Below, piece after piece: positions 12,397 through 40,523 of a stretch of DNA of 64,000 nucleotides. Origin of the DNA: Bacteroidetes bacterium GWF2_33_16 (GTDB taxonomy: Bacteria > Bacteroidota > Bacteroidia > Bacteroidales > UBA12077); contig MEOE01000023.1 in NCBI GenBank assembly GCA_001768565.1, positions 287,215 to 351,214 of the forward strand. Reading direction: 5' to 3'. The notes beneath the pieces are model-generated. The model did no database searches, had not been told where the DNA came from, and worked only from the letters and a program-made list of their open reading frames with translations. The translations under genes and the position numbers were made by a program. The first letter of the stretch is position 1. Every line of letters starts with the position of its first letter.

Positions 12397-15300
12397 TTAT
12401 GGCTTAACAACTCTAACTTTTACTCCTGCTTTTGTAGCCTTAAAGCTACCATTATACATTGCTTCAACCAGTGTTCCTGGCAATTCAAACTCACCAACAG
12501 TAACTGCATTTAATTTTACCATAAAGTCAATCTCGTTATTAAGAGGATCGTATTGATGTAAATCGAAAAACCACATGATACGGTCATCGCGAATATCAAG
12601 ATAATCCTCATGATTAAGTTTAAGTCCAGTTGCCCAATTAGGGGTTGACTCTTCAAGCAAACGGGTATTTTCAATTTCCCATCCCGAAGGTAAAATTTGC
12701 ACTAAAGCAATCTCATCGACTTGTTTCAGACTGCTTTCATTTCTAACAGAGAAATGTCCCCAAAAGGTTGTTCCCTGTTTTATCTCGTTAATATTTAGAG
12801 GATTTCCTTTATCGTCGTACCAGTTTACTTTAACACTTAAGTTCTCTGATTTATCCTGAAGATTACTTTCTAAAGGTACGCCATTCCATGTAAGCGTTGT
12901 ATATGCTTTTTTAACACTACTTTCGCTTTCTAAAATCACCTGAAGTGATTTTCCGAAGCCCTCGTTTAATTCAAGACTAAATGATTTATCGCTATCGAAG
13001 GTCACTGTTTCTCCGTTTGGCAGCTTTACCGAGCCTTTAATCTTTAAACTACCTGATTGATTATTCAACACATTTATATATTTACCCATGGCAAGCAATG
13101 AGTAACCAATTGTTTGTGTTGAATACCATGAGGTTGCAGACAAATGTTTTGCTATATCACGTGTAAGCTGATCGGCCAAATCATATTTCTCTAATACAAC
13201 CAACGCATCTAAAATCATTGCTTTATCGCGTAGTCCAGATCCATATGTTCCAGAAAACTCAGCATAATCTTTTGTTTCTAGATTTACATCTTTAATAATT
13301 TCATCTACCTTTTCTGGTAAACCGGCTAATTTATATGTAGCAGCCAACAACCATTTTTGAGTGTTATCCATTTCTTTTAGCTTGCTCTCTTTTAACTGGT
13401 TCATTTCATTCATTACAGGATTACCTGACAAAGCCAGTATGTAAACCCTGTAAACACGATACATCAGGTCGCCTGTATTTCTACGTGCTTGTTGTTTATT
13501 GTAATTAAGCCAATTATCATATAAATCGCCAACCACATGATAACCCAATTTTTTTGCTTCGACCATAAAATGACCAGCATACAGTGTTCCCCATTCAGAA
13601 ACATCGTTTCCATAAGGCCAATAAGAAAATCCTCCAGAGTATTGCTGAAACTTTCTTAGCCGCTCCAAACCATTATTTATCTGTTGATCAATATCTTCTG
13701 AAAAAGCATCAGGATATTTCATAAATTTTTTCAGATAAAGCTGTGGCAATACGGCTGAGGTTGTTTGCTCTATGCATCCATAAGGATAATTAATTAACCA
13801 TCGTAAACGATGCGAAAAATTAATACTTGGAAAATTCGAAATGGTTAATGTTGCATTATTCGTTCCTTTAATTCCATTTTCAGGAATAGCAATAGAAATA
13901 TTTTTACCTGGTTCAACCACACTTTCATTTAATCCATAAATTCTTGGTGATGTAGGCCTAACCATCAAATCAACTTCATAACTTGCGTTGTATTGATCTG
14001 ATGAAGCATTTATTACGACTTTAGATTGTCCCGCTTCTGGTTTAACAACAATGTTAAAGAAACAATCCTGATCGGTTGCTTTATTGAAGTTCAAGGTTTG
14101 AGTTTTTGCACCATCAACGGTCAAAGGTCCTTCTGTTGTAATAGAGACATTTACTTTTCCTATTTTATCTTTCATTGCAAAAACGCTCACCGGAATTGTG
14201 AATTTCTCTCCAGGGCCAATTACTCTTGGTAATGTTCCAAGTAGCATAAGTTCTGATTTTACGGTAACAGCCTTTTCAGCGCGTGCATACGAATTTCCTC
14301 GAGCACCGATAACCATTACGCGAACCGATCCAACATAATTAGGCATTTCGAACTGTACAACCGCTTTCCCGTTGGCATCGGTTTTTATCGGACCTTTAAA
14401 CATACAAACAGGCTTGAATCGTTTCTTGCCTTTTTCCGGCTGTTGCTGCGACTCACGATAATCCATATCGCCACCAATAGAGAATGTTTTAAAAACATCA
14501 CCCTTTAATGCAGAAATAACATGTGAGAAAATATCGTAAGTTAGTACTTTTAATCTCGTCTTTCTAAAAAAATGTTTCCATGGATCGGGTGTTTTAAACT
14601 GGGTTATATCCAGTAAACCCTCATCAACAACAGCAATAGTAAACTGGGTTTGTTTCTGATCCTTTGTTTGAATCGTTATTTCAAAAGGTTCTTTCGGTCT
14701 AAATTGCTCCGAAGTAATAATTTCAATTTCGTGTTTAGTTTCGCGATCCTCGACCAACAATGGTAAAATACCAAACATCCGTATTGGTCGGTCGTTAACT
14801 GTTTGTGCATGTGGTTGCAGTAAAGAGATTGAAACATATGCATTAGGAACCATTTCTTTTGTAATAGGAATACGAATTGTTTTTTCGTTATTCCCATCAG
14901 GATAATACCATTTTTGCTCAATAATTTCGTTTTCCTTTTCAATAGTTACCAAAATAGTTCCTTCTTTGGGTGTTGGAAACTGAATATCGGCAATATCTCC
15001 TACATAGTATTTTTCCTTATCGGCGCTTAATGCAAGAGTCCCTGCATTTTTATCTCCTGAAGCAACTCCTCCATAAGGATATGCACTTATAAAAATACCA
15101 GAAGAATGACCTGTGCCATTTTCGTCAGTTACCTCAACAAAGTAATTTCCTTTTTCAATAGGAAGAAATTGTAGCTTATAATGTGTTTTAGTTGTTACAA
15201 TAGTTCCTTCTTTAATAAGGCTTGTATTTCTATCGGTTTTAAACCGTAGATTTCTATCATTATCGTACTGATACCACCAATATTCTGAATTTAGATATAT

Positions 15301-17847
15301 TCTATATTTAAGTGATTTTCCTGCAACAGGCTCGCCCGAGTTGTTTACAAAAATTACCGGAATTTCGGTATCGGTTCCTGTAGCCACATAATAATATTTT
15401 AATGGCTGAAGTCCAACATAATGTTCGTATGGTTCAACAGGTATATTTGCCCAATTAATGTTAGGTCTTCCTCCTTTTTCTAATACTTTTGCAGTGACTT
15501 TAATATTTAATGCAGATGGAACACCATGGAATGAAGGCAATTCCCATTCGATATGTTTTACTCCATTCTCATCTAAACTACCTTTAAATAAGTCTTTTTG
15601 AATAGTGCTAAAGTCAAGACAAGGATTATTAAATACGAATTTCTCATATTTTGGGAATCTTTTATTTACTTCTGTTATTTCTGCATCAACTTCAACCGGC
15701 AGATTTGATGCTGGATTACCAAAAAGATAACTACTTATAACATCTAGTTTGAGTACATTATCGCTCCAGGAAATAACTATGTTTTCGGGTTCTACTTTTA
15801 CCTTTAAGCGATATGGAACAATTGTTTCAATTTTTATAGTATGACTAAACTCTTTATTCCCTATATCAAAACTGGCGTTCCAATTTCCTGTTGGGTCAGA
15901 ATCTTTGGTTTGAAAAGTAAAATTAAAAAAGCCCTCTTTGTTCTCCCTATTGGTAATTTCGTATACTTTTTTCCCTTCGGGATTATAAAGTTGCATAGTG
16001 AGAGGATGATTATCGGGAAAGCTATTACTCTGATTTCTTACAATAACAGATATATTCATTTCGTCGCCAGGTCTATAAACACCACGTTCGGTGTATACAT
16101 ATGCCTTTGTACCTTGTTTATATTCATCAATACCACCAATATCGAAACCGGAAATATTCCATTCCATTTCGTTAAATTTTATAACACTTCTTTGTCCATC
16201 TTTTTCTGCTTCGATATAAGTACTGTAATAATATCCATCGCTGAAAAATTTAACCAATCCTTCGCTATCTGTAACACCAGAAGCCAAAATAGGATCATAG
16301 TTATTATACATCCTTTTAAGCTGAACATTAACTCCTCGTAGAGGCTTAGAAGTATTAATATCAGTAGCAATAACATAATAAAAATCACCAGCTCTCTTAC
16401 AGGTCAAACCAATATTGCTTAAAAAGATTGGTTTATATACTTGTCCATATTCTTCAATATACTTTAATTTCTCCTCATTAATATCAACCAAAACATCTCT
16501 CGGATTGAAGTTCAAACGAATAAGATATAGTCCTTTATCATTTTCCTTAATAACGCCCGAAAGGTCTATTTCGCTTAACAGCCAGTTATTTTTATGATCA
16601 CTTATCTCAAAAGTTTCGTTATGAACAATAACACCCAATCTATTTATATACGAACCATTAAAACTGGTTTTACGATCCTTTAAACTATTTAACTGCTCTG
16701 TTTGTATAAATTCGGCAAGACTTTCTTCATAAACCTTTTTTACTTCTATATGTACTCTTTTTAAGTTACTTGTATAGAATTGCACCTTGTTCTTGTTTTC
16801 GGAAGGAAGAATTATTCCATCAGATGCAAACTCAACCTGAGGTTTAATATCTGAGAAACGAATATTTTCTTTGTATGAGCTTGTGGTTTCAGTTCCCCAG
16901 CGGCTCCTTACACCTGCTTCAACAATTACTGAATAATTGGTACCAAAACTAAAATTACCATCAAGAATTACAGTATTTCCTAATCGTTGAATTTTTAACT
17001 CCGCTTTTGGCTCTACGTTTATTAGCCCATTCAGATTTTGTTCCGGATCAAACTCATCAGAAAACTCAACATAAATTTTTGGAACACGCCCTTCTTCCTG
17101 CTTGTTCACCTTAACCACTTTCATCTGGGCAATCGGAGTTACTTGAAAATCCTTTTCAAAATCATCTAAAAGATTAAGCTTATTTTTATCAATAGAAATA
17201 GAAAAGCTTTGAGTAGAATTATCACGCGTAAGATCTTCGCTTATAAAGGAAAATGTATACCCATCGGTTTCGGATGTCCAGTTTAACTCATATTTTTTGG
17301 ATCCTTTTTTCAGCAATGTAGCATCTTTAATCACCTCAAGCTCTACCTTCTCAGTAAATGATATTTTCCCACGATAATTTAATAATTTTGGATTGTTTCT
17401 ATTCTTCAGAACCAGTTCGCCTGTAAAATCTTTTAATTCGCGACCCCTGATTGAAAAACTAAATTTTAATATCTCAAGTTTTTTTTCTTTTAGCTCATCT
17501 GATATTTTTCCTAAATCTAATTCGCCTGTATATGACTTTCTATATTGTAACGGTTCGCTGGGTTCGAAGATCAGCGTTTTTAAATCGCCCCAATAGGTTT
17601 TTCCCTTAATTTTGGGTGAAAATTTAAAAATGCTTTTTTCTAATGGTTTGTTTAAATCTTCAGAAGAAACCATTGGGTTTACAAACTTAACCTGAATCTT
17701 GTCTGTGTCCCTTATATCACCATTAGTAACCTGACTAACTATTTTAGCCATTTCTTCAGAATAGGTAATTTCTGAATGTTTTTGCTTTTTGCAGGCAATT
17801 GTTATTATACATAATATAATAAAAAATGCAAGGAAATTTTTCTTCAT
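12397..17847 (-). CDS. Bacterial alpha-2-macroglobulin lipoprotein
   Basis: This is an 1816-residue lipoprotein; the lipobox IITIAC puts the modified cysteine at C19. Repeated MG (macroglobulin) domains fill the first two thirds, with the A2M core from about residue 1000 (FTIAVVDEGLLDITQFKTPDPW). The thioester motif is intact: C1358 in YPYGCIEQTTSA. The terpenoid-cyclase-like thioester domain follows. Family members trap attacking proteases by covalent attachment through the thioester and guard the periplasm. The pair with PBP1C just downstream is the standard arrangement and suggests defence plus repair of the envelope. No clear Bacteroidota promoter is visible in the 183-base divergent gap. 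Confidence 0.95.
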   Translation of the reverse strand: MKKNFLAFFIILCIITIACKKQKHSEITYSEEMAKIVSQVTNGDIRDTDKIQVKFVNPMVSSEDLNKPLEKSIFKFSPKIKGKTYWGDLKTLIFEPSEPLQYRKSYTGELDLGKISDELKEKKLEILKFSFSIRGRELKDFTGELVLKNRNNPKLLNYRGKISFTEKVELEVIKDATLLKKGSKKYELNWTSETDGYTFSFISEDLTRDNSTQSFSISIDKNKLNLLDDFEKDFQVTPIAQMKVVKVNKQEEGRVPKIYVEFSDEFDPEQNLNGLINVEPKAELKIQRLGNTVILDGNFSFGTNYSVIVEAGVRSRWGTETTSSYKENIRFSDIKPQVEFASDGIILPSENKNKVQFYTSNLKRVHIEVKKVYEESLAEFIQTEQLNSLKDRKTSFNGSYINRLGVIVHNETFEISDHKNNWLLSEIDLSGVIKENDKGLYLIRLNFNPRDVLVDINEEKLKYIEEYGQVYKPIFLSNIGLTCKRAGDFYYVIATDINTSKPLRGVNVQLKRMYNNYDPILASGVTDSEGLVKFFSDGYYYSTYIEAEKDGQRSVIKFNEMEWNISGFDIGGIDEYKQGTKAYVYTERGVYRPGDEMNISVIVRNQSNSFPDNHPLTMQLYNPEGKKVYEITNRENKEGFFNFTFQTKDSDPTGNWNASFDIGNKEFSHTIKIETIVPYRLKVKVEPENIVISWSDNVLKLDVISSYLFGNPASNLPVEVDAEITEVNKRFPKYEKFVFNNPCLDFSTIQKDLFKGSLDENGVKHIEWELPSFHGVPSALNIKVTAKVLEKGGRPNINWANIPVEPYEHYVGLQPLKYYYVATGTDTEIPVIFVNNSGEPVAGKSLKYRIYLNSEYWWYQYDNDRNLRFKTDRNTSLIKEGTIVTTKTHYKLQFLPIEKGNYFVEVTDENGTGHSSGIFISAYPYGGVASGDKNAGTLALSADKEKYYVGDIADIQFPTPKEGTILVTIEKENEIIEQKWYYPDGNNEKTIRIPITKEMVPNAYVSISLLQPHAQTVNDRPIRMFGILPLLVEDRETKHEIEIITSEQFRPKEPFEITIQTKDQKQTQFTIAVVDEGLLDITQFKTPDPWKHFFRKTRLKVLTYDIFSHVISALKGDVFKTFSIGGDMDYRESQQQPEKGKKRFKPVCMFKGPIKTDANGKAVVQFEMPNYVGSVRVMVIGARGNSYARAEKAVTVKSELMLLGTLPRVIGPGEKFTIPVSVFAMKDKIGKVNVSITTEGPLTVDGAKTQTLNFNKATDQDCFFNIVVKPEAGQSKVVINASSDQYNASYEVDLMVRPTSPRIYGLNESVVEPGKNISIAIPENGIKGTNNATLTISNFPSINFSHRLRWLINYPYGCIEQTTSAVLPQLYLKKFMKYPDAFSEDIDQQINNGLERLRKFQQYSGGFSYWPYGNDVSEWGTLYAGHFMVEAKKLGYHVVGDLYDNWLNYNKQQARRNTGDLMYRVYRVYILALSGNPVMNEMNQLKESKLKEMDNTQKWLLAATYKLAGLPEKVDEIIKDVNLETKDYAEFSGTYGSGLRDKAMILDALVVLEKYDLADQLTRDIAKHLSATSWYSTQTIGYSLLAMGKYINVLNNQSGSLKIKGSVKLPNGETVTFDSDKSFSLELNEGFGKSLQVILESESSVKKAYTTLTWNGVPLESNLQDKSENLSVKVNWYDDKGNPLNINEIKQGTTFWGHFSVRNESSLKQVDEIALVQILPSGWEIENTRLLEESTPNWATGLKLNHEDYLDIRDDRIMWFFDLHQYDPLNNEIDFMVKLNAVTVGEFELPGTLVEAMYNGSFKATKAGVKVRVVKP

Positions 17848-24777: not shown

Positions 24778-25491
24778 ATGGAAAAGCAAGTATTGGCAGC
24801 AAAATTAAATGAGCAATTAAAGGGATTTACACCCGAAAAAGTACTCTGGTATTTTATTAAGGAGTATGGAAAGAACATGGCATTTTCATCGAGTTTGGGA
24901 GCTGAAGACCAGGTTTTAACCAATATGATTTGCGAGATTGATAAAAATACACGCATCTTTACACTCGATACTGGTCGAATGTTTCCAGAAACCTATAAAC
25001 TGATTGAAAAAACCAATTCTCGTTATAAAATTAAAATAGAAATTTTCTTCCCTGATTACCAACAGGTTGAAAATATGGTTCACGAAAAAGGAATCAACCT
25101 ATTTTACGAAAGCATAGACAACCGAAAACAGTGTTGCCATATCCGTAAAATTGAACCACTAAAAAGAGCTTTTAAAGGATTGGATGTATGGATTTGTGGT
25201 TTACGTCGAGAGCAATCAATAACACGAACATCAAACCAACTGGTTGAGTGGGATGAAAATAACAGTTTACTAAAAATAAATCCTCTGATTGATTGGACTG
25301 AAAATCAGGTTTGGGATTATATCCGAAAACATAATATTCCTTATAACGATTTACATGATAAAGGATTTCCAAGTATTGGTTGTCAACCATGCACTCGTGC
25401 AATTAAATCAGGCGAAGATGTTCGGGCTGGGCGATGGTGGTGGGAAAATCCCGATAAAAAAGAATGCGGATTGCACAATACAGCAGAATAA
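24778..25491 (+). CDS. cysH: Adenylyl-sulfate (APS) reductase
   Basis: A 237-residue CysH-type reductase: SSSLGAEDQVL (PP-loop), LDTGRMFPETY, and the paired iron-sulfur ligands C119-C120 and C202-x2-C205, with catalytic C230 near the C-terminus (KKECGLH). The CC...CxxC motif marks the [4Fe-4S] enzyme that reduces APS rather than PAPS. It makes sulfite in assimilatory sulfate reduction, which feeds sulfide to CysK encoded at 43052. The rest of the sulfate pathway is not in this window. Confidence 0.95.
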   Translation: MEKQVLAAKLNEQLKGFTPEKVLWYFIKEYGKNMAFSSSLGAEDQVLTNMICEIDKNTRIFTLDTGRMFPETYKLIEKTNSRYKIKIEIFFPDYQQVENMVHEKGINLFYESIDNRKQCCHIRKIEPLKRAFKGLDVWICGLRREQSITRTSNQLVEWDENNSLLKINPLIDWTENQVWDYIRKHNIPYNDLHDKGFPSIGCQPCTRAIKSGEDVRAGRWWWENPDKKECGLHNTAE

Positions 25492-25528
25492 CAAAAAAAA
25501 ACCAGTTTTCAAACTTTATCTTTGCTTT

Positions 25529-26755
25529 ATGATTAATCCTCGATATATAAAAATCTTAATAATACTTACCATAGTTACAGTTTTTGAATTATCAATAAAA
25601 ACAACTCAGGCACAATCAGAAGATAAGTACGTTGTTGTGTTGTCAATGGATGCCTTTCGATGGGATTATACAACTATAACATCAACTCCTGTTTTGGATT
25701 CTATTGCCACTATAGGTGTTAAAGCACAATCATTTAAACCTGCCTTTCCGACATTAACTTTTCCGAATCATTACAGTTTAGCAACAGGTCTTTACCCCGA
25801 CAATCATGGAATTGTTTCAAACAACTTTTATGATGATTCGCTTAAAGCTGTTTATCGAATTGGTGATAGAGTTTCAGTCGAAGATGGCCGCTTTTATGGG
25901 GGTGAACCCATTTGGGTAACTGCCGAGAAACAAGGCATGATAAGTGCTTCTTTCTATTGGGTTGGCTCAGAGGCTCCGATTCAAGGTATTCAACCAACAT
26001 ACTGGAAAAAGTACGATGGAAATGTATCTTTCGAAAACCGCATTGATACTGTGATTGCATGGTTACAAAAACCCGAAGATAAGCGGCCTCATCTTATTAT
26101 GTTTTATTTTGATGAACCGGATGCTATAGCTCATAAGTTTGGCCCGGGGGCTCCTCAAGTAAATACAATGGTTACTTATCTTGATAGTTTAGTTGGTGTT
26201 TTCATAAAAAAAATAAATGCTTTGCCAATTGGTAATAAAATCAATTTTATCATTGTTTCTGATCATGGTATGGCAGAAACATCAAGCGAAAGAGTTATTG
26301 ATTTGTCCAAATATATTAAAAAAGAATGGGTAAGCAGATCACATGGAGGAAATCCATCGGTAATAATAAAAACTGCTGCAAACTGTGAAGATTCAATTTT
26401 AACAGCCCTTTCAACAGTTAAAAACCTGAAATCTTGGAAAACATCCGAAGTTCCTGAACGATTGCATTATGGAAAAAATCCACGAACAATGGATATTCTT
26501 GTTTTAGCAGACATTAATTGGGTTATAGGTTGGAACAGCAAGAATAAGTCATTTAAGGGTGGAGCACATGGATACGATAATAACGAACCAGATATGCTTG
26601 GAATATTTTATGCAATAGGTCCTGATTTCAAGAATGGCTACTTACATAAACAAATTGAGGGTGTAGATTTATATCCATTACTGACAAAACTTTTAAATCT
26701 TAAGCCAGCAATAACAGACGGAAAGCTATTGAATACATTAGATATGCTAAAATAA
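25529..26755 (+). CDS. Secreted nucleotide pyrophosphatase/phosphodiesterase
   Basis: A 408-residue alkaline-phosphatase-superfamily protein with a signal peptide (ILIILTIVTVFELSIKTTQAQ). Metal ligand D41 (SMDAFRWDY), nucleophile T77 (FPTLTFPNHYSLATG) and SDHGM are all present, as in ENPP enzymes. It likely hydrolyses phosphodiester or pyrophosphate bonds outside the inner membrane. A closely similar paralogue lies at 53345-54571. The ATG at 25529 is chosen because it starts the signal peptide; the frame also stays open upstream into cysH. An exact -7 box TATCTTTG at 25517-25524 lies only 5 bases before it, which suggests a near-leaderless mRNA or is coincidental. Confidence 0.9.
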   Translation: MINPRYIKILIILTIVTVFELSIKTTQAQSEDKYVVVLSMDAFRWDYTTITSTPVLDSIATIGVKAQSFKPAFPTLTFPNHYSLATGLYPDNHGIVSNNFYDDSLKAVYRIGDRVSVEDGRFYGGEPIWVTAEKQGMISASFYWVGSEAPIQGIQPTYWKKYDGNVSFENRIDTVIAWLQKPEDKRPHLIMFYFDEPDAIAHKFGPGAPQVNTMVTYLDSLVGVFIKKINALPIGNKINFIIVSDHGMAETSSERVIDLSKYIKKEWVSRSHGGNPSVIIKTAANCEDSILTALSTVKNLKSWKTSEVPERLHYGKNPRTMDILVLADINWVIGWNSKNKSFKGGAHGYDNNEPDMLGIFYAIGPDFKNGYLHKQIEGVDLYPLLTKLLNLKPAITDGKLLNTLDMLK

Positions 26756-26832: not shown

Positions 26833-28239
26833 CTATTCGTTTTTAAAATAGGTTACTGTTTTCAACTCTCTCCATGCTCCGCGAGTAAAATCTGGCACCT
26901 GAACTGGCATTCCCTGGTTTTCAACTGAAACGCGCGAAAGCTCGATAATTGCAGACCATTCGGCAGCATCATACACATCCATATCCAATGGAAGACCATT
27001 TTGCAAGCAATAAATTAAGCGGTAATCCATTATAAAATCCATTCCACCGTGACCACCAACTTGTTTGGCTTTTCCCCCAACCTCAGTTATAATAGGATGT
27101 TCATAAACTTTTAGCAAAGAATCCAAAGCTTTATCTGAAAGATATCTGTGACCATCAGGTTCGAGTGAAATACCTGTTCGTGGCCACTTCTGTGCAAAAC
27201 CCTTGGTACCACTTAACATATGTATACGGCTATATGGGCGTGGATTGGTTGTATTGTGCTGTATTAAAATAGTTTTTCCTTTGCTTGTTTTTATGATTGT
27301 TGAGCTCATGTCGCCTTTCTTGTATTCAGCTTTTGCATAATCCGAATCTTCACCAAATTTTTCTTTTGCATACTCGGTTAATCCAAATTGATTACTCGAA
27401 ACTGAAACCAGGTAATCCATTTTGTCGCCACGATGAATATTCAGAGCATGAGCAACCGGACCTAATCCATGTGTTGGGTACAAGCAACCATCTTCCTTCT
27501 GGTTGTGTTTTAATCTCCACATATCCCAGTACCCTTTTTCTTCATCAAACAAGAGCCATCTTAAATCATGAATATAAGCGCCCTCGGCATGAACTATCTC
27601 TCCGAACAAACCTTTTTGAGCCATATTAAGAGTAGCCATCTCGAAGAAATCGTAATTGCAGTTCTCAAGCATTATCATATGTCGTCGGGTTTTTTCAGCG
27701 GTATTCACCAATTGCCATGCTTCATCAATGGTTAGAGCAGCTGGCACTTCTATTGCTGCATGTTTTCCCTTTTCCATAGCATAAACTGCAATAGGAGTAT
27801 GTAAATCCCAATGTGTACAAACATAAACCAGATCAATATCATTTCTCTCGCAAATTGTTTTCCAATCTTCTGCTCCTGTATATCCAACAGCCTCAGATCT
27901 ACCCAATTCTTTAAGAGTCTTTTGGGCTTCTTCGACATTTGCTGGAACAACATCAGCCAAGGCGACTATTTTAGTACCTTCGATATAACTCAATCGGTAA
28001 ACGGCACCCTGCCCACGCATTCCAAGGCCAATTATTGCTATACGAACAGTATCCATTGGTTCAGCTCTAAGTTCAAGTACATGTGTTTGTCCTGCCAATC
28101 TTTCGGGAACAGGAAAAGCTTCAACAGCTGTAAAAAGCGTTTTATCTTTTGAAGCAGTATTGCATGCAATAATCCCTATACTCATTATAATTACAACGAG
28201 AATTGCAACTTTAGTAAACCTTAGTTTTCGTGTTGTCAT
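26833..28239 (-). CDS. GH109-type glycosidase (Gfo/Idh/MocA fold), probable alpha-N-acetylgalactosaminidase
   Basis: A 468-residue lipoprotein (lipobox GIIAC, C26) with an NAD-binding Rossmann start (IAIIGLGMRGQGAVYRL) and a Gfo/Idh/MocA C-terminal domain. GHGGMDFIMDYRLIYCLQ and VPDFTRGAW are typical of family GH109, whose characterised members cleave alpha-linked N-acetylgalactosamine by an NAD-dependent mechanism. It is the last gene of a unit with a ROK regulator and a hexosamine-kinase-like gene, which supports an amino-sugar role. Other MocA-type oxidoreductases share the fold, so enzyme activity is inferred. Confidence 0.87.
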   Translation of the reverse strand: MTTRKLRFTKVAILVVIIMSIGIIACNTASKDKTLFTAVEAFPVPERLAGQTHVLELRAEPMDTVRIAIIGLGMRGQGAVYRLSYIEGTKIVALADVVPANVEEAQKTLKELGRSEAVGYTGAEDWKTICERNDIDLVYVCTHWDLHTPIAVYAMEKGKHAAIEVPAALTIDEAWQLVNTAEKTRRHMIMLENCNYDFFEMATLNMAQKGLFGEIVHAEGAYIHDLRWLLFDEEKGYWDMWRLKHNQKEDGCLYPTHGLGPVAHALNIHRGDKMDYLVSVSSNQFGLTEYAKEKFGEDSDYAKAEYKKGDMSSTIIKTSKGKTILIQHNTTNPRPYSRIHMLSGTKGFAQKWPRTGISLEPDGHRYLSDKALDSLLKVYEHPIITEVGGKAKQVGGHGGMDFIMDYRLIYCLQNGLPLDMDVYDAAEWSAIIELSRVSVENQGMPVQVPDFTRGAWRELKTVTYFKNE

Positions 28240-28304
28240 GTCTTTAGTTATTTATGTATTCTTGGTTTTTACCATTATAAATTGTGATATCCTTTTTCTA
28301 ATCT

Positions 28305-29372
28305 CTAATTTGCTTTTAAACATTCGAGAATTATTCTTTTGCTAATGTCTTCGTGCGACTCCATACTTTCAATAAGCTTTTTCTGCACCTTACAGCGATC
28401 CAGATTATGCTCACTATAAGCGGTTTTATAATAAATATCTCCATTCAAGTAATCAGCCAAAAAACGTATACCCATAATATATGTCATAAAAACAGGAGCC
28501 CTGTATAAATAAATCTTTTCTTTTTCAGTTAATACAGTTTTAACTTGTTGTATATATCCCGTTGAAAATGCTCTAAAAGCATTCAGGTTAAATGAAACCT
28601 TTTCTAGTTTCTTTTCATCTTCGGCAGCATTATTAGCCGAAGTACGTAAGGCATCTCCATAGTCATTAATAATACTACCCGGACCAGCAGTATCAAGATC
28701 AATAACAGCCACTACAGTATTATTTCTAAAAAGTATATTATTCAATTTTGTGTCGTTATGAACAATGCGTAATGGAAGGTCTCCTTTATCAATTAATCGT
28801 TCAATTTGCACCAGCGATTTTTCCATATTCTTAAAAAACCGTACTATTGGTTCGACTGATTTTAATCTACCAGCAATATTATTTGTAATAGCCTCATCAA
28901 GTTGATTTAATCGAAATGTTAATCGATGAAAATCTTTAATGGGTTCCTGAAAATCACTTGTATTAAGAAATTGACTTTCTTTTACAAACCAGCCATAACC
29001 GACTCCCGACTGATAAGCTTGCCAATTCTCATCAACAACCTCAATAGAATATGAATCCTTAAAGAAAGTTGTTAATCGCCATGCTCCCCCAGAATTATCT
29101 ATATAAAGATATTTACCATTATTATCGGGCATTAATTGGGCAATTGCAAGAGAATGATTATTCTTCGAAAATTCATTTTGTAACCTTAAATGATTTTCAA
29201 TTATTATTTCAGGATTTTTAAAGACAGATGTATTTATTCGTTGCAATAAATAGGTAGACGAAGGGTTTTCAAACTCAACTTTGTAAGTATCATTAATATG
29301 CCCATTTCCAAAAGGTTTTACATTATAACTGGTAGCATTGGGAAAATAATTTTTAATTACAATATCAATCAT
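28305..29372 (-). CDS. Phosphotransferase of the N-acetylhexosamine 1-kinase (NahK) type
   Basis: A 355-residue aminoglycoside-phosphotransferase-fold kinase. The catalytic loop is IVHNDTKLNNILF and the metal-binding motif VIDLDTAGPGSIINDYGDALR, the pattern seen in NahK and related hexosamine kinases (HNDTK). It would phosphorylate N-acetylgalactosamine or N-acetylglucosamine at C1 in the cytoplasm. It lies 65 bases upstream of the GH109-type gene and 98 bases downstream of the ROK regulator. An inverted repeat at 29410-29431 precedes it. Homoserine kinase-like and choline kinase-like relatives are alternatives. Confidence 0.83.
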   Translation of the reverse strand: MIDIVIKNYFPNATSYNVKPFGNGHINDTYKVEFENPSSTYLLQRINTSVFKNPEIIIENHLRLQNEFSKNNHSLAIAQLMPDNNGKYLYIDNSGGAWRLTTFFKDSYSIEVVDENWQAYQSGVGYGWFVKESQFLNTSDFQEPIKDFHRLTFRLNQLDEAITNNIAGRLKSVEPIVRFFKNMEKSLVQIERLIDKGDLPLRIVHNDTKLNNILFRNNTVVAVIDLDTAGPGSIINDYGDALRTSANNAAEDEKKLEKVSFNLNAFRAFSTGYIQQVKTVLTEKEKIYLYRAPVFMTYIMGIRFLADYLNGDIYYKTAYSEHNLDRCKVQKKLIESMESHEDISKRIILECLKAN

Positions 29373-29409
29373 TCTTTAAGTTAATTAACCTGTGTTAAGA
29401 TTTCCGAAA

Positions 29410-29431
29410 GTTATTAATATTTTTTAATAAC
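29410..29431. promoter_or_regulatory. Inverted repeat before the hexosamine-kinase gene (possible ROK operator)
   Basis: GTTATTAA (29410-29417) and TTAATAAC (29424-29431) are perfect arms around TATTTT, 38 bases before the kinase start. The half-sites TTATTAA/TTAATAA are the outer parts of the palindrome before the ROK gene. No T run follows on the minus strand, so a terminator is less likely. Confidence 0.5.
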
Positions 29432-29470
29432 TACAAATCATATTGTTTGTGATTTTAATTTTTTTACTTA

Positions 29471-30721
29471 TTAATGTTGTTCTAAATCCTTTGGAACAAC
29501 AAATATATTCGACATTACAACAGGAATGGCTCCAAGTAAGCCTGATTTTTGATGAAGTACAGAAAGGATTATTTGTGTATCCTTCTTTAATTGGAACATT
29601 GCATACTTATTAAGTTTCTGTCGAATGGTATTTAGAATTAAATCCTCTGCTTCGGCCATTTCGCCGCCAATTATTACTGCTTCAGGATTAAAAAGATGCA
29701 ATATTGTTGATATTCCGCGTGCAATATATTCGCTGGCTTCTTCAAGCAATTCCAATGCAAACTGATCTCCTTGTTTGGCTGCGGTAATTATTGTTATTAA
29801 TTTAATATCTTGCATAACATTATTAACCTGATTGCTAATTATTGAGGATTTCCCTTTTTCTATTTCAGCTATAGCTTTTCTAACTATCGTGGTTCCGGAT
29901 GCAACTGTTTCCAAACAACCATTCTTTCCACAATAGCATAACTCACCTCCCTGAATCATTTGAATATGACCAAACTCTCCAGAAAATCCTGAATGTCCAT
30001 GATACAAGTTGCCATTAATTATTATTCCCATACCAATACCAGAACCAATGTTTAAAAACAGAACATTTGACATTCTTTGTGCAAGACCAAACCAGGATTC
30101 TCCCAAAACCATGGACTTTGTATCGTGCTCTACAAAAGCAGGTCGACCAAAAAGCCTGGTAAACATAGTATTCAAATTACCTGATCCAAGTTGCGGATAA
30201 CTATAACTAATTCCTTTGCGAATATCAATCAATCCAGGAATAGTGATTCCGTAACCAATTATCTGCTCATTTTTAATTTTTCGGCTTTTAAGCAGCTTGG
30301 ATGATTCCTTTTTTAATAAAAGTAAAATATCTGCAGCAGTATCAAGCCCCTTATCAATTTCAACTAGTTCTCCAAGACTCTGGTTAAGCATGTTAAATAT
30401 AGATAAGCGGCAGTAATCACGACTTATCTCAATAGCCATAATATACCCAGCATCAGGATTAAGGCCAAACAGAGCCGGCTTACGTCCTCCTTTTGATTCG
30501 CCGCTGCCGAAATTCTGAACCCATCCAGCCTCGGTTAGTTCATTTAAAACGGCTGTAAGTGAAGGAATACTGTTATTTGTTTCGTCACACAATTCACTTA
30601 TTGCTTTTTGTCCTTCTTTGTAAAAAATTCTGGCAAGATGAAGTTTAAGCAAGAACTTTTTATACGATGCAGCACTTTTATTTTCCTTATAACTATTGAT
30701 TATATGATCGACTATATTCAT
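29471..30721 (-). CDS. ROK-family (NagC/XylR-like) transcriptional regulator
   Basis: A 416-residue protein with an N-terminal MarR-like winged helix (about 20-80; AISELCDETNNSIPSLTAVL, ELTEAGWVQ) and a ROK sugar-binding domain. The zinc motif is GELCYCGKNGCLETVASG, and SGEFGHIQM supplies the conserved histidine. Members with this layout repress sugar-use genes and respond to phosphorylated or free sugars. A 27-bp palindrome lies 35 bases upstream. With the downstream kinase and GH109-type genes it likely responds to an N-acetylhexosamine; this is inference. Confidence 0.92.
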   Translation of the reverse strand: MNIVDHIINSYKENKSAASYKKFLLKLHLARIFYKEGQKAISELCDETNNSIPSLTAVLNELTEAGWVQNFGSGESKGGRKPALFGLNPDAGYIMAIEISRDYCRLSIFNMLNQSLGELVEIDKGLDTAADILLLLKKESSKLLKSRKIKNEQIIGYGITIPGLIDIRKGISYSYPQLGSGNLNTMFTRLFGRPAFVEHDTKSMVLGESWFGLAQRMSNVLFLNIGSGIGMGIIINGNLYHGHSGFSGEFGHIQMIQGGELCYCGKNGCLETVASGTTIVRKAIAEIEKGKSSIISNQVNNVMQDIKLITIITAAKQGDQFALELLEEASEYIARGISTILHLFNPEAVIIGGEMAEAEDLILNTIRQKLNKYAMFQLKKDTQIILSVLHQKSGLLGAIPVVMSNIFVVPKDLEQH

Positions 30722-30755
30722 TTTTTTATTGGTTATGGTGTAACTTAATCAGAAC

Positions 30756-30782
30756 TTATTAATTAATAGCATTAATTAATAA
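30756..30782. promoter_or_regulatory. 27-bp perfect palindrome upstream of the ROK gene (likely operator)
   Basis: TTATTAATTAAT (30756-30767) and ATTAATTAATAA (30771-30782) are perfect arms around AGC. It is centred about 48 bases before the ROK start. NagC-type operators also have TTA...TAA-like outer bases. The low complexity (AT only) lowers certainty. Confidence 0.6.
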
Positions 30783-30925
30783 AAAAGGCAATGCAATATA
30801 CAAATATTATTAAATATTTTTAATATGTTTTGTTTTAAACACAAAATAGCATTCTTTTTCAAGCAAAAAACACTATGATTACTTACAGTTATTTAATTGC
30901 AGCAGCCAAGGGAGGATTTTCGCTT

Positions 30926-30989: not shown

Positions 30990-32087
30990 ATGAAAACTAT
31001 TCTAAAACGAATCAGCAAATTATTCCTTTACCTTTTGGGCGGAATTTTTCTCATTATTTTAATACTCGCTTTTACTTTATGGATTAAAAGTCCGGGTAAA
31101 GCAGATCCTATAACTGACGCTAACGGAAACACAATACCAGGAAGCATTTCTACTATAGAGAAAATTGTACTAGGTGGCCAGGAACAATACCTGATTATTC
31201 GTGGAACCGATATTACCAAGCCTGTAATGCTTTTTCTGCATGGCGGACCAGGTAGTCCTGAGTATGCATTTATGAAAGCTACAAACCTTGCTCTCGAAAA
31301 TGATTTTGTGATGGTATATTGGGAACAACGTGGGGCAGGAAAATCCTATTCAAAAGAGATTCCTGATGAAAGCATGAACCTGAATCAATTTATTTCTGAT
31401 ACCCGGGAGTTAAGTGAATACCTTGCTAAACGATTTAATCAGGGGAAAATATATATAATGGGTCATTCGTGGGGTTCGTTTTTAGGTATTTTAACCGCCT
31501 TTCATTATCCAGAGCTTTTTCATGCTTATTTTGGTGTTGGCCAAGTTTGTCATCAATACAAAGGAGAGCATATTTCTTATGAATGGGTAAAAGAGCAAGC
31601 ACAACTAAATAATGATGAGAAAGCTATAAACGGTCTATCCAAGATTTCTTTCCCCGATTCATTGTCAGATATTAATGCATGGAAAGATTTTTTAATGATT
31701 GAACGAAATTATGTAACTCAATATGGTGGTGGAGTAACACATGAAATGAAAGGAATGTGGCCAGTAGTTAAAATGGTTCTTAATTTAAAAGAATACACTT
31801 TTAGAGAAAAAATAATGTTTATGCCCGCCAGCCTTTACTCACTTGAACACCTATGGCTTGAGGTAATAAATAAAAACCTATTTAATGAAATTGATAGCAT
31901 GCAGATACCTGTTTATATTTTTCAGGGAAAATTTGATTATCAAACCCCTTATTCTGTTGCAAAAGACTTTTATGATCAGCTAAATGCAACAGAAAAGGAT
32001 TTTTTTACATTTGAAAAATCAGCACACAGCCCATTGATGGAAGAAGTAGAAAAATTTAATACAATTATTTTGGATAAAACAAGATAA
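30990..32087 (+). CDS. Alpha/beta hydrolase, membrane-anchored (prolyl-iminopeptidase-like)
   Basis: A 365-residue protein with an N-terminal membrane helix (LFLYLLGGIFLIILILAFTLWI), so anchored with the domain outside the cytoplasm. The hydrolase domain has the oxyanion loop LHGGPGSPEYAF, WEQRGAGKSY, and the nucleophile elbow GHSWGSFLG; the acid is likely in GKFDYQTP and the histidine in SAHSP. HGGPGSP and EQRGAGKS are typical of prolyl iminopeptidases and related esterases. Substrate unknown. It is monocistronic. Confidence 0.88.
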   Translation: MKTILKRISKLFLYLLGGIFLIILILAFTLWIKSPGKADPITDANGNTIPGSISTIEKIVLGGQEQYLIIRGTDITKPVMLFLHGGPGSPEYAFMKATNLALENDFVMVYWEQRGAGKSYSKEIPDESMNLNQFISDTRELSEYLAKRFNQGKIYIMGHSWGSFLGILTAFHYPELFHAYFGVGQVCHQYKGEHISYEWVKEQAQLNNDEKAINGLSKISFPDSLSDINAWKDFLMIERNYVTQYGGGVTHEMKGMWPVVKMVLNLKEYTFREKIMFMPASLYSLEHLWLEVINKNLFNEIDSMQIPVYIFQGKFDYQTPYSVAKDFYDQLNATEKDFFTFEKSAHSPLMEEVEKFNTIILDKTR

Positions 32088-39590: not shown

Positions 39591-40523
39591 TCAACTATTA
39601 GCACCATCTTTTAGAAATATAATATTCCTTTTTATTCCTTCGAACTTTGTGCGTTCAAGCGGGGAGTTTTTAAAAATCCTTTTAAAATCAGCGTGATTCA
39701 AGTTTTCCCAATCAGGTTTTAAAAAAGATGATACTTCGTGATTTAGGAATAATTCTTTTTCATGATGGGGTTTTGATTTCGAGTTCCATGGGCATACATC
39801 CTGACAGATATCGCAGCCAAAAACCCAATCCTGCCATTGATTTTTAAAAGGTTCGGGAATATCTCCTTTTTTCTCTATAGTCAAATAGGATATGCATTTT
39901 CGAGCATCCAGCTTGTAAGGTGTTAAAGCTTTTGTTGGGCAAGCATCAATACATCTTGTACAACTTCCACATAAATCTTTAACCGATGAATCATAATCCA
40001 AATCTACATTCACGATTATTTCACCAACGAAGAAAAATGAACCATGATCTCTCGAAATAAGATTTGTGTTTTTACCAATCCATCCGAGTCCGGATTTTGC
40101 AGCCCAGGCTTTTTCCATCACAGGAGCAGAATCAACAAAAATACGTCCTGAAACTTTGGGTTCTAACGTTTTTATATAATCAAACAAGATGCTCAGTTTT
40201 TCTTTTAGAACAAAGTGATAGTCTTTGCCATAAGCATATTTAGAGATTTTATAAGTGTTTTTGGGTTGGGTGCATGGTTGATAATAATTGTACAAAACCG
40301 ATATAATTGATTTTGCTCCATCAACCAAAAGCCTTGGATCAGTTCGCTTTTCGAAATGATTCTCCATATATTTCATCTCGCCATGATAGTCTGCATTCAA
40401 CCATTCATGAAGTAACATAGACTCTTTTCCCAATTGCTCAGCCTTTGATATTCCAATCCCCAAAAAGCCCAATTCGATTGCTTTTTGTTTTATTTTTTCA
40501 GTAATGGAAATTTGCGAGTTCAT
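39591..40523 (-). CDS. queG: Epoxyqueuosine reductase
   Basis: A 310-residue QueG: cobalamin-binding N-terminal part (YAYGKDYHFVLKEKL, FVDSAPVMEKAWAAKSGLGWIGKN) and two [4Fe-4S] motifs, CGSCTRCIDACP and CDICQDVCPW. It reduces epoxyqueuosine to queuosine in the wobble position of tRNAs, using B12. It is downstream of folB by 25 bases, probably in one transcript. The HEAT-like C-terminal extension of some homologues is absent, as in many Bacteroidota. Confidence 0.95.
   Translation of the reverse strand: MNSQISITEKIKQKAIELGFLGIGISKAEQLGKESMLLHEWLNADYHGEMKYMENHFEKRTDPRLLVDGAKSIISVLYNYYQPCTQPKNTYKISKYAYGKDYHFVLKEKLSILFDYIKTLEPKVSGRIFVDSAPVMEKAWAAKSGLGWIGKNTNLISRDHGSFFFVGEIIVNVDLDYDSSVKDLCGSCTRCIDACPTKALTPYKLDARKCISYLTIEKKGDIPEPFKNQWQDWVFGCDICQDVCPWNSKSKPHHEKELFLNHEVSSFLKPDWENLNHADFKRIFKNSPLERTKFEGIKRNIIFLKDGANS

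Follow-up and report, generated by a model that had tools for sequence, protein, structure and literature searches.

A three-gene cluster encoding a ROK-family transcriptional regulator, a NahK-like N-acetylhexosamine 1-kinase and a glycoside hydrolase of family GH109 lies on the minus strand of a 64,000-nucleotide (nt) stretch of the genome of Bacteroidetes bacterium GWF2_33_16 (contig MEOE01000023.1), which as a whole is called the window here (Table 1). The original prediction is correct on the genes: they share a strand and follow one another as ROK, kinase and GH109, with gaps of 98 nt (ROK/kinase) and 65 nt (kinase/GH109). The flanking genes, a phosphodiesterase-like gene (25289–26755) and an alpha/beta hydrolase gene (30990–32087), both face the opposite way, so the trio stands isolated. 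No SusC/SusD pair was seen among the called and family-scanned genes within a few kb of the trio, consistent with the prediction that these genes are lacking, and the locus is therefore not classed as a polysaccharide utilization locus (PUL). The two inverted repeats with TTATTAA/TTAATAA half-sites that had been described ahead of the ROK and kinase genes also exist.

Table 1. Genes and upstream elements of the ROK–kinase–GH109 locus, in window coordinates
Feature	Position	Strand	Remarks
GH109 NAD+-dependent N-acetylgalactosaminidase with lipoprotein signal (predicted activity)	26833..28239	-	468 aa
NahK-like N-acetylhexosamine (probably GalNAc) 1-kinase, APH fold	28305..29372	-	355 aa
Promoter-like core TTTG-N20-TAACTTTC enclosing the kinase repeat	29406..29437	-	Bacteroidetes sigma-A -33 TTTG / -7 TAnnTTTG type, one mismatch
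Kinase-proximal inverted repeat AGTTATTAA-N6-TTAATAACT, probable ROK operator (putative)	29409..29432		36–38 bases upstream of kinase ATG
ROK-family transcriptional regulator	29471..30721	-	416 aa
ROK-proximal perfect palindrome TTATTAATTAAT-agc-ATTAATTAATAA, function uncertain	30756..30782		12-bp arms, 34 bases upstream of ROK ATG
TATATTGC within conserved block TTTGTATATTGCATTG, tentative -7 element of the ROK promoter	30793..30800	-	inferred; block identical in G001
Weaker repeat TATTAAA-aata-TTTAATA, upstream of the conserved ROK promoter block	30807..30825		partly similar in G001

The hydrolase combines a Rossmann-type NAD domain with the GH109 C-terminal domain (PF01408 and PF21252, both above cut-off, the latter at 181 bits), and among solved GH109 structures it matches PDB 6t2b best (E = 1e-92), followed by 2ixa (E = 1e-74). 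The catalytic residues of the Elizabethkingia enzyme (E149, Y179, Y225, H228 and Y307) are all kept in the alignment, and a GGHGG loop at residues 395–399 is, together with the VGGHGGMDFIMDYR block, invariant in 12 of 12 aligned GH109 proteins. For this loop, the title of Teze et al. 2020 (cited in PMC12269599) indicates a catalytic role. The protein has a lipoprotein signal (IIAC, residues 23–26), and a lipoprotein-type signal with its cysteine opens every GH109 protein encoded next to such a kinase (below) whose start was covered; the hydrolase is therefore probably exported.

The kinase matches Pfam APH (5e-14) and aligns over nearly its full length with crystallised NahK (PDB 4wh1/4ocj; E about 4e-59; residues 16–353 for 4wh1). 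Its GHIN, HNDTK, IDLDT, RFLADY and EHNL motifs were located; the core residues are kept in 13 of 13 paired kinases, among which HNDTK and DLDT are invariant. Full-length similarity and the HNDTK and IDLDT motifs place the protein with NahK, and it is predicted to be an N-acetylhexosamine 1-kinase, with N-acetylgalactosamine (GalNAc) as its probable substrate. The regulator matches Pfam ROK (E = 2.8e-60), with PDB matches to 1z05, Lmo0178 and Mlc, and scores 208.8 bits against the NagC equivalog NF047937 (cut-off 650), so that it is not assigned to NagC. An N-terminal winged helix-turn-helix (HTH), recognised by eye, precedes a ROK domain whose H..CxCGxxGCxE zinc signature was read from the alignment, and with the CxCGxxGC zinc motif this is the domain set of a ROK repressor. 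The DxGxT ATP motif was not found on reading the protein by eye. Because the HTH and zinc signature are present and DxGxT is missing, we regard the protein as a regulator and not a kinase.

Kinase and GH109 genes lie adjacent on the same strand at 13 loci from several families, the window included, with gaps of 24–134 nt in the other 12 (at L247 the GH109 gene is cut by a contig end). The exceptions to this pairing are L244 and L251, plus L249, which is at a contig end. At some loci a permease gene precedes the pair, from the major facilitator superfamily (MFS) at L245 and the sodium-solute symporter (SSS) type at L248. Directly after the SSS permease–kinase–GH109 cluster of L248 lies a tyrosine recombinase gene of the phage integrase family (L248:10624–11526). 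Among 25 sampled genomes of the family, a close ROK orthologue occurs in one (G001) only, in a trio with 70%, 67% and 89% identity to the ROK, kinase and GH109 proteins of the window. That trio occupies the same chromosomal place, between a 305–310-aa gene (queG-like, by eye) and an 1816-aa gene whose window counterparts are at 39591–40523 and 12397–17847, with other genes intervening. A more distant trio (L131) shows 56%, 53% and 73% identity, and four congeners besides G001 (G006, G013, G016 and G018) have the kinase–GH109 pair with no ROK gene in front. The enzyme and regulator identities originally proposed are thus borne out by the Pfam and PDB matches, the recurrence of the pair and a published counterpart in Bacteroides thetaiotaomicron (PMC11992087); the mucin-type or blood-group substrate proposed with them is unproven.

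Members of the ROK clade at 38%–53% identity mostly head operons in which a permease of the sodium-solute or MFS type is joined by a nucleotidyltransferase and a NahK-like kinase. Fourteen orthologues lead operons of the form ROK–permease–nucleotidyltransferase–NahK-like kinase, and others lead GH109 and/or GH2 genes; in Lentimicrobium-type loci the operon is followed by an extra gene of ~780 aa, a GH20 in L139 (the one scanned). Since its orthologues head N-acetylhexosamine (HexNAc) operons, the clade is tied to HexNAc use independently of any palindrome. A large neighbouring gene in relatives' loci is, by Pfam, a GH2 beta-galactosidase. In a Bacteroidales metagenome-assembled genome (isolate CSSed165cm_555; L127:8004–14614) a ROK relative (61%–63% identity) has as neighbours a GH2 beta-galactosidase and an M60-like peptidase that carries an F5/8 domain, a gene content that resembles PUL BT4240-50 of B. 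thetaiotaomicron.

Both in the window and in G001 (locus L099), the kinase-proximal repeat takes up the 20 nt that separate TTTG from TAACTTTC and reaches into TAACTTTC, with identical spacing of the promoter-like core. The two 9-bp arms are unchanged in G001, where substitutions fall in the spacer only, and 31 of the 36 bases of the block that contains the repeat are identical, amid intergenic sequence that aligns poorly. No comparable repeat was found in the four congeners without a ROK gene in front (longest arm 7), so the operator claim draws on two genomes that have the site and four that lack it. Apart from one mismatch the core resembles the -33 TTTG / -7 TAnnTTTG promoter consensus of Bacteroides (PMC7366714), a pattern without enrichment in the window (11 occurrences versus 9.6 expected) and so unusable as stand-alone evidence. 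A repressor site across the core promoter is the simplest reading of this repeat. ROK sites are generally described as having a T-rich end and an A-rich end (PMC4856308), which the repeat fits loosely.

The ROK-proximal palindrome behaves differently. Its 12-bp arm was reached in just 2 of 1,000 dinucleotide shuffles of the 268-bp intergenic region, and TTATTAA-N4..16-TTAATAA occurs in the 64 kb only in these two repeats (0.24 expected). The half-sites are 13 nt apart in the palindrome versus 6 nt in the kinase repeat, so the two do not share a site architecture. The palindrome is not conserved in G001 or L131, both of which keep the trio, and ROK autoregulation through it, as originally predicted, is therefore unsupported; of the proposed shared operator, what survives is the kinase-proximal repeat, kept with the trio in G001 across a promoter-like core. 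The palindrome may serve as a site in this lineage alone, or it may have no function. Just upstream of it, the block TTTGTATATTGCATTG is kept in G001, and the weaker repeat beyond that block, with a spacing nearer that of the kinase site, could speculatively be an alternative autoregulation site, albeit a poorly conserved one.

The 27-bp palindrome pattern has a single exact match in the 4.33-Mb genome. Genome-wide searches with the palindrome and the 22-bp kinase site returned 769 and 23 matches, respectively, versus 737 and 21 in reversed controls. Three one-mismatch copies of the kinase site adjoin a phosphoribosyltransferase/HAD pair, uvrB and an uncharacterised gene (by eye), and none of them precedes a recognisable amino-sugar or other sugar gene. 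No further genomic copies stood ahead of amino-sugar genes, where the original prediction had pointed, and no wider regulon is visible. Nor was a common TTATTAA-N6-TTAATAA site found upstream of 32 ROK relatives: a 13/14 match is present in L139 and L154, and sister loci are without it. A different inverted repeat, TTGATAAGAA-N10-TTTTTATCAA with one mismatch, lies about 78–108 nt before the ROK gene of an SSS-type operon (L138); ROK sites may have shifted between clades.

The genome holds one kinase and one GH109 gene of these types, a GalE and one GH20. Elsewhere, on contig C11 (L118:8417–10669) and unlinked from the kinase, an MFS permease gene is followed by the sole orthologue of the operon nucleotidyltransferase. 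Against the NagP model the permease reaches 405.8 bits (cut-off 625), and the nucleotidyltransferase has its closest solved structure in 3pnn, an entry deposited under the description of a conserved domain protein; the two genes are likely to be the missing half of the pathway. NagB (TIGR00502) was not found in the genome at E 0.001 with this one family model, in a search that does detect NagB in Bacteroides. Without NagB, amino sugars may be routed into nucleotide sugars, or another deaminase may take its place.

From the gene identities, the kinase–GH109 pairing, and the conservation and position of the kinase repeat we infer the substrate preference, the ligand, repression and the route after the kinase, and consider that the locus is probably a compact GalNAc release-and-salvage unit in which ROK represses the kinase–GH109 pair through the kinase repeat. 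The GH109 lipoprotein would cut terminal GalNAc off glycans or glycopeptides outside the cytoplasm, and a permease, for which the unlinked NagP-like MFS protein of C11 is the candidate, would import it. The kinase would convert GalNAc to GalNAc-1-phosphate, which the C11 nucleotidyltransferase and GalE could carry to UDP-GalNAc and UDP-GlcNAc. Binding of ROK to the inverted repeat overlapping the kinase promoter would keep both genes repressed until a GalNAc-derived ligand released it. Several observations weigh against this account. The kinase repeat is conserved in one further genome only and is absent in L131 despite the same trio; its arm length was reached in 34 of 1,000 shuffles (~3%), mildly unusual for 82% A+T DNA. 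No copy of it was seen upstream of the C11 permease gene, so there is no visible sign that the remainder of the pathway is controlled in this way. Given the 98-nt ROK/kinase gap and the separate promoter-like core, the three genes may or may not share a transcript, and a preference for GalNAc over N-acetylglucosamine (GlcNAc) is not readable from the kinase sequence. An unlikely refinement is that ROK, sensing GalNAc or GalNAc-1-phosphate, gates a salvage-only route that supplies UDP-GalNAc and UDP-GlcNAc for the envelope and not a carbon source, in a genome in which no NagB was detected.

The original prediction, in which one type of ROK operator occurs twice, for autoregulation and ahead of the kinase, in a unit for mucin or blood-group glycans, now seems doubtful. 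The common half-sites, the sole such pairs in the window, speak for it, as does the O-glycoprotein package around the L127 ROK relative; the unequal spacing, the absence of the palindrome from G001 and L131, the lack of genome-wide excess of either site over reversed controls and the fact that the three near-copies of the kinase site precede no recognisable sugar gene all count against it. Its substrate class is also open, as GH109 enzymes also cleave beta-GalNAc. That the repeats arose by chance in A+T-rich intergenic DNA, with ROK using other sites, is similarly improbable: base composition and the shuffle frequency of the kinase repeat would allow it, and other ROK-family clades have no common palindrome, but perfect arms in G001 amid diverged flanks are hard to reconcile with chance, as is the rarity of the palindrome arm among shuffles.

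Alternatively, the repeats might be RNA hairpins and not operators, acting on 5'-untranslated region stability or as weak terminators between ROK and kinase; each in isolation does fold as a hairpin of about -5 kcal/mol. The stems are weak, however, and almost all A-U, folding in context is unconvincing against shuffles (z = -1.1 and -1.6), and the kinase repeat lies inside the promoter-like core and hence would go untranscribed from that promoter; we think this the least probable explanation. Slightly better placed, though still quite improbable, is the idea that the two enzymes act on GlcNAc or some other amino-sugar glycoside in place of GalNAc. The bifidobacterial NahK is active on both HexNAcs (PMC11992087), and the orthologous operon with GH20 (L139) suggests wider HexNAc use, but the pairing with GH109 is tight, characterised GH109 members in the cited papers release GalNAc, and the B. 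thetaiotaomicron kinase BT4240 favours GalNAc over GlcNAc ~275-fold (PMC11992087).

The window ROK protein shares with E. coli NagC and Mlc its domain organisation, zinc signature and likely an amino-sugar effector, yet it scores far under both equivalog cut-offs and on present evidence is a local, not a global, regulator. The kinase has its family and active-site motifs in common with NahK of the bifidobacterial galacto-N-biose/lacto-N-biose (GNB/LNB) pathway (PDB 4wh1, 4ocj). That pathway imports disaccharides and relies on a phosphorylase, whereas here a predicted exported GH109 would free the monosaccharide. With the Elizabethkingia (2ixa) and Akkermansia (6t2b) enzymes the hydrolase shares a fold family, NAD site, HGG loop and the YPTHG and RPY motifs; it differs in being a lipoprotein with an adjoining kinase gene. 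A GH109 of Bacteroides caccae is an alpha/beta-N-acetylgalactosaminidase from a chondroitin-type locus (PMC12269599), and since GH109 enzymes act on both alpha- and beta-GalNAc, mucin is not to be assumed as the substrate.

The closest parallel is operon 1 of PUL BT4240-50, which encodes the kinase BT4240, the GH2 BT4241, the MFS transporter BT4242 and the GH109 BT4243 (PMC11992087). BT4243 is an alpha-GalNAcase that frees GalNAc from blood group A and from Tn antigen, and the kinase BT4240 phosphorylates GalNAc, most probably at O1. Growth on GalNAc requires BT4240, as does about half of the growth on chondroitin sulphate, and in some other Bacteroides operon 1 has no SusC/D operon nearby (PMC11992087). 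As far as the published description allows comparison, both systems encode a GH109 together with a NahK-like GalNAc kinase and follow a common plan of exported hydrolase, cytoplasmic kinase and sugar transporter. The regulators of BT4240-50 are a predicted extracytoplasmic function (ECF) sigma/anti-sigma pair, whereas a ROK gene precedes the pair in the window; GH2 and MFS genes lie inside the Bacteroides operon, whereas the candidate permease here is on another contig. The chemistry is not new, since the literature on BT4240-43 already describes such a pair with a proven GalNAc kinase. The comparison adds that the pairing of GH109 with a GalNAc kinase reaches beyond gut Bacteroides, recurring among uncultured relatives as a widespread two-gene module, and that the place of SusC/D-ECF style control can be taken by a ROK regulator. 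For the fate of GalNAc-1-phosphate, a genome that encodes the kinase, the nucleotidyltransferase and GalE but has no detectable NagB would be a useful test case. The window locus is a reduced relative of the characterised system with a different regulator, and as such a fairly ordinary variant of it.

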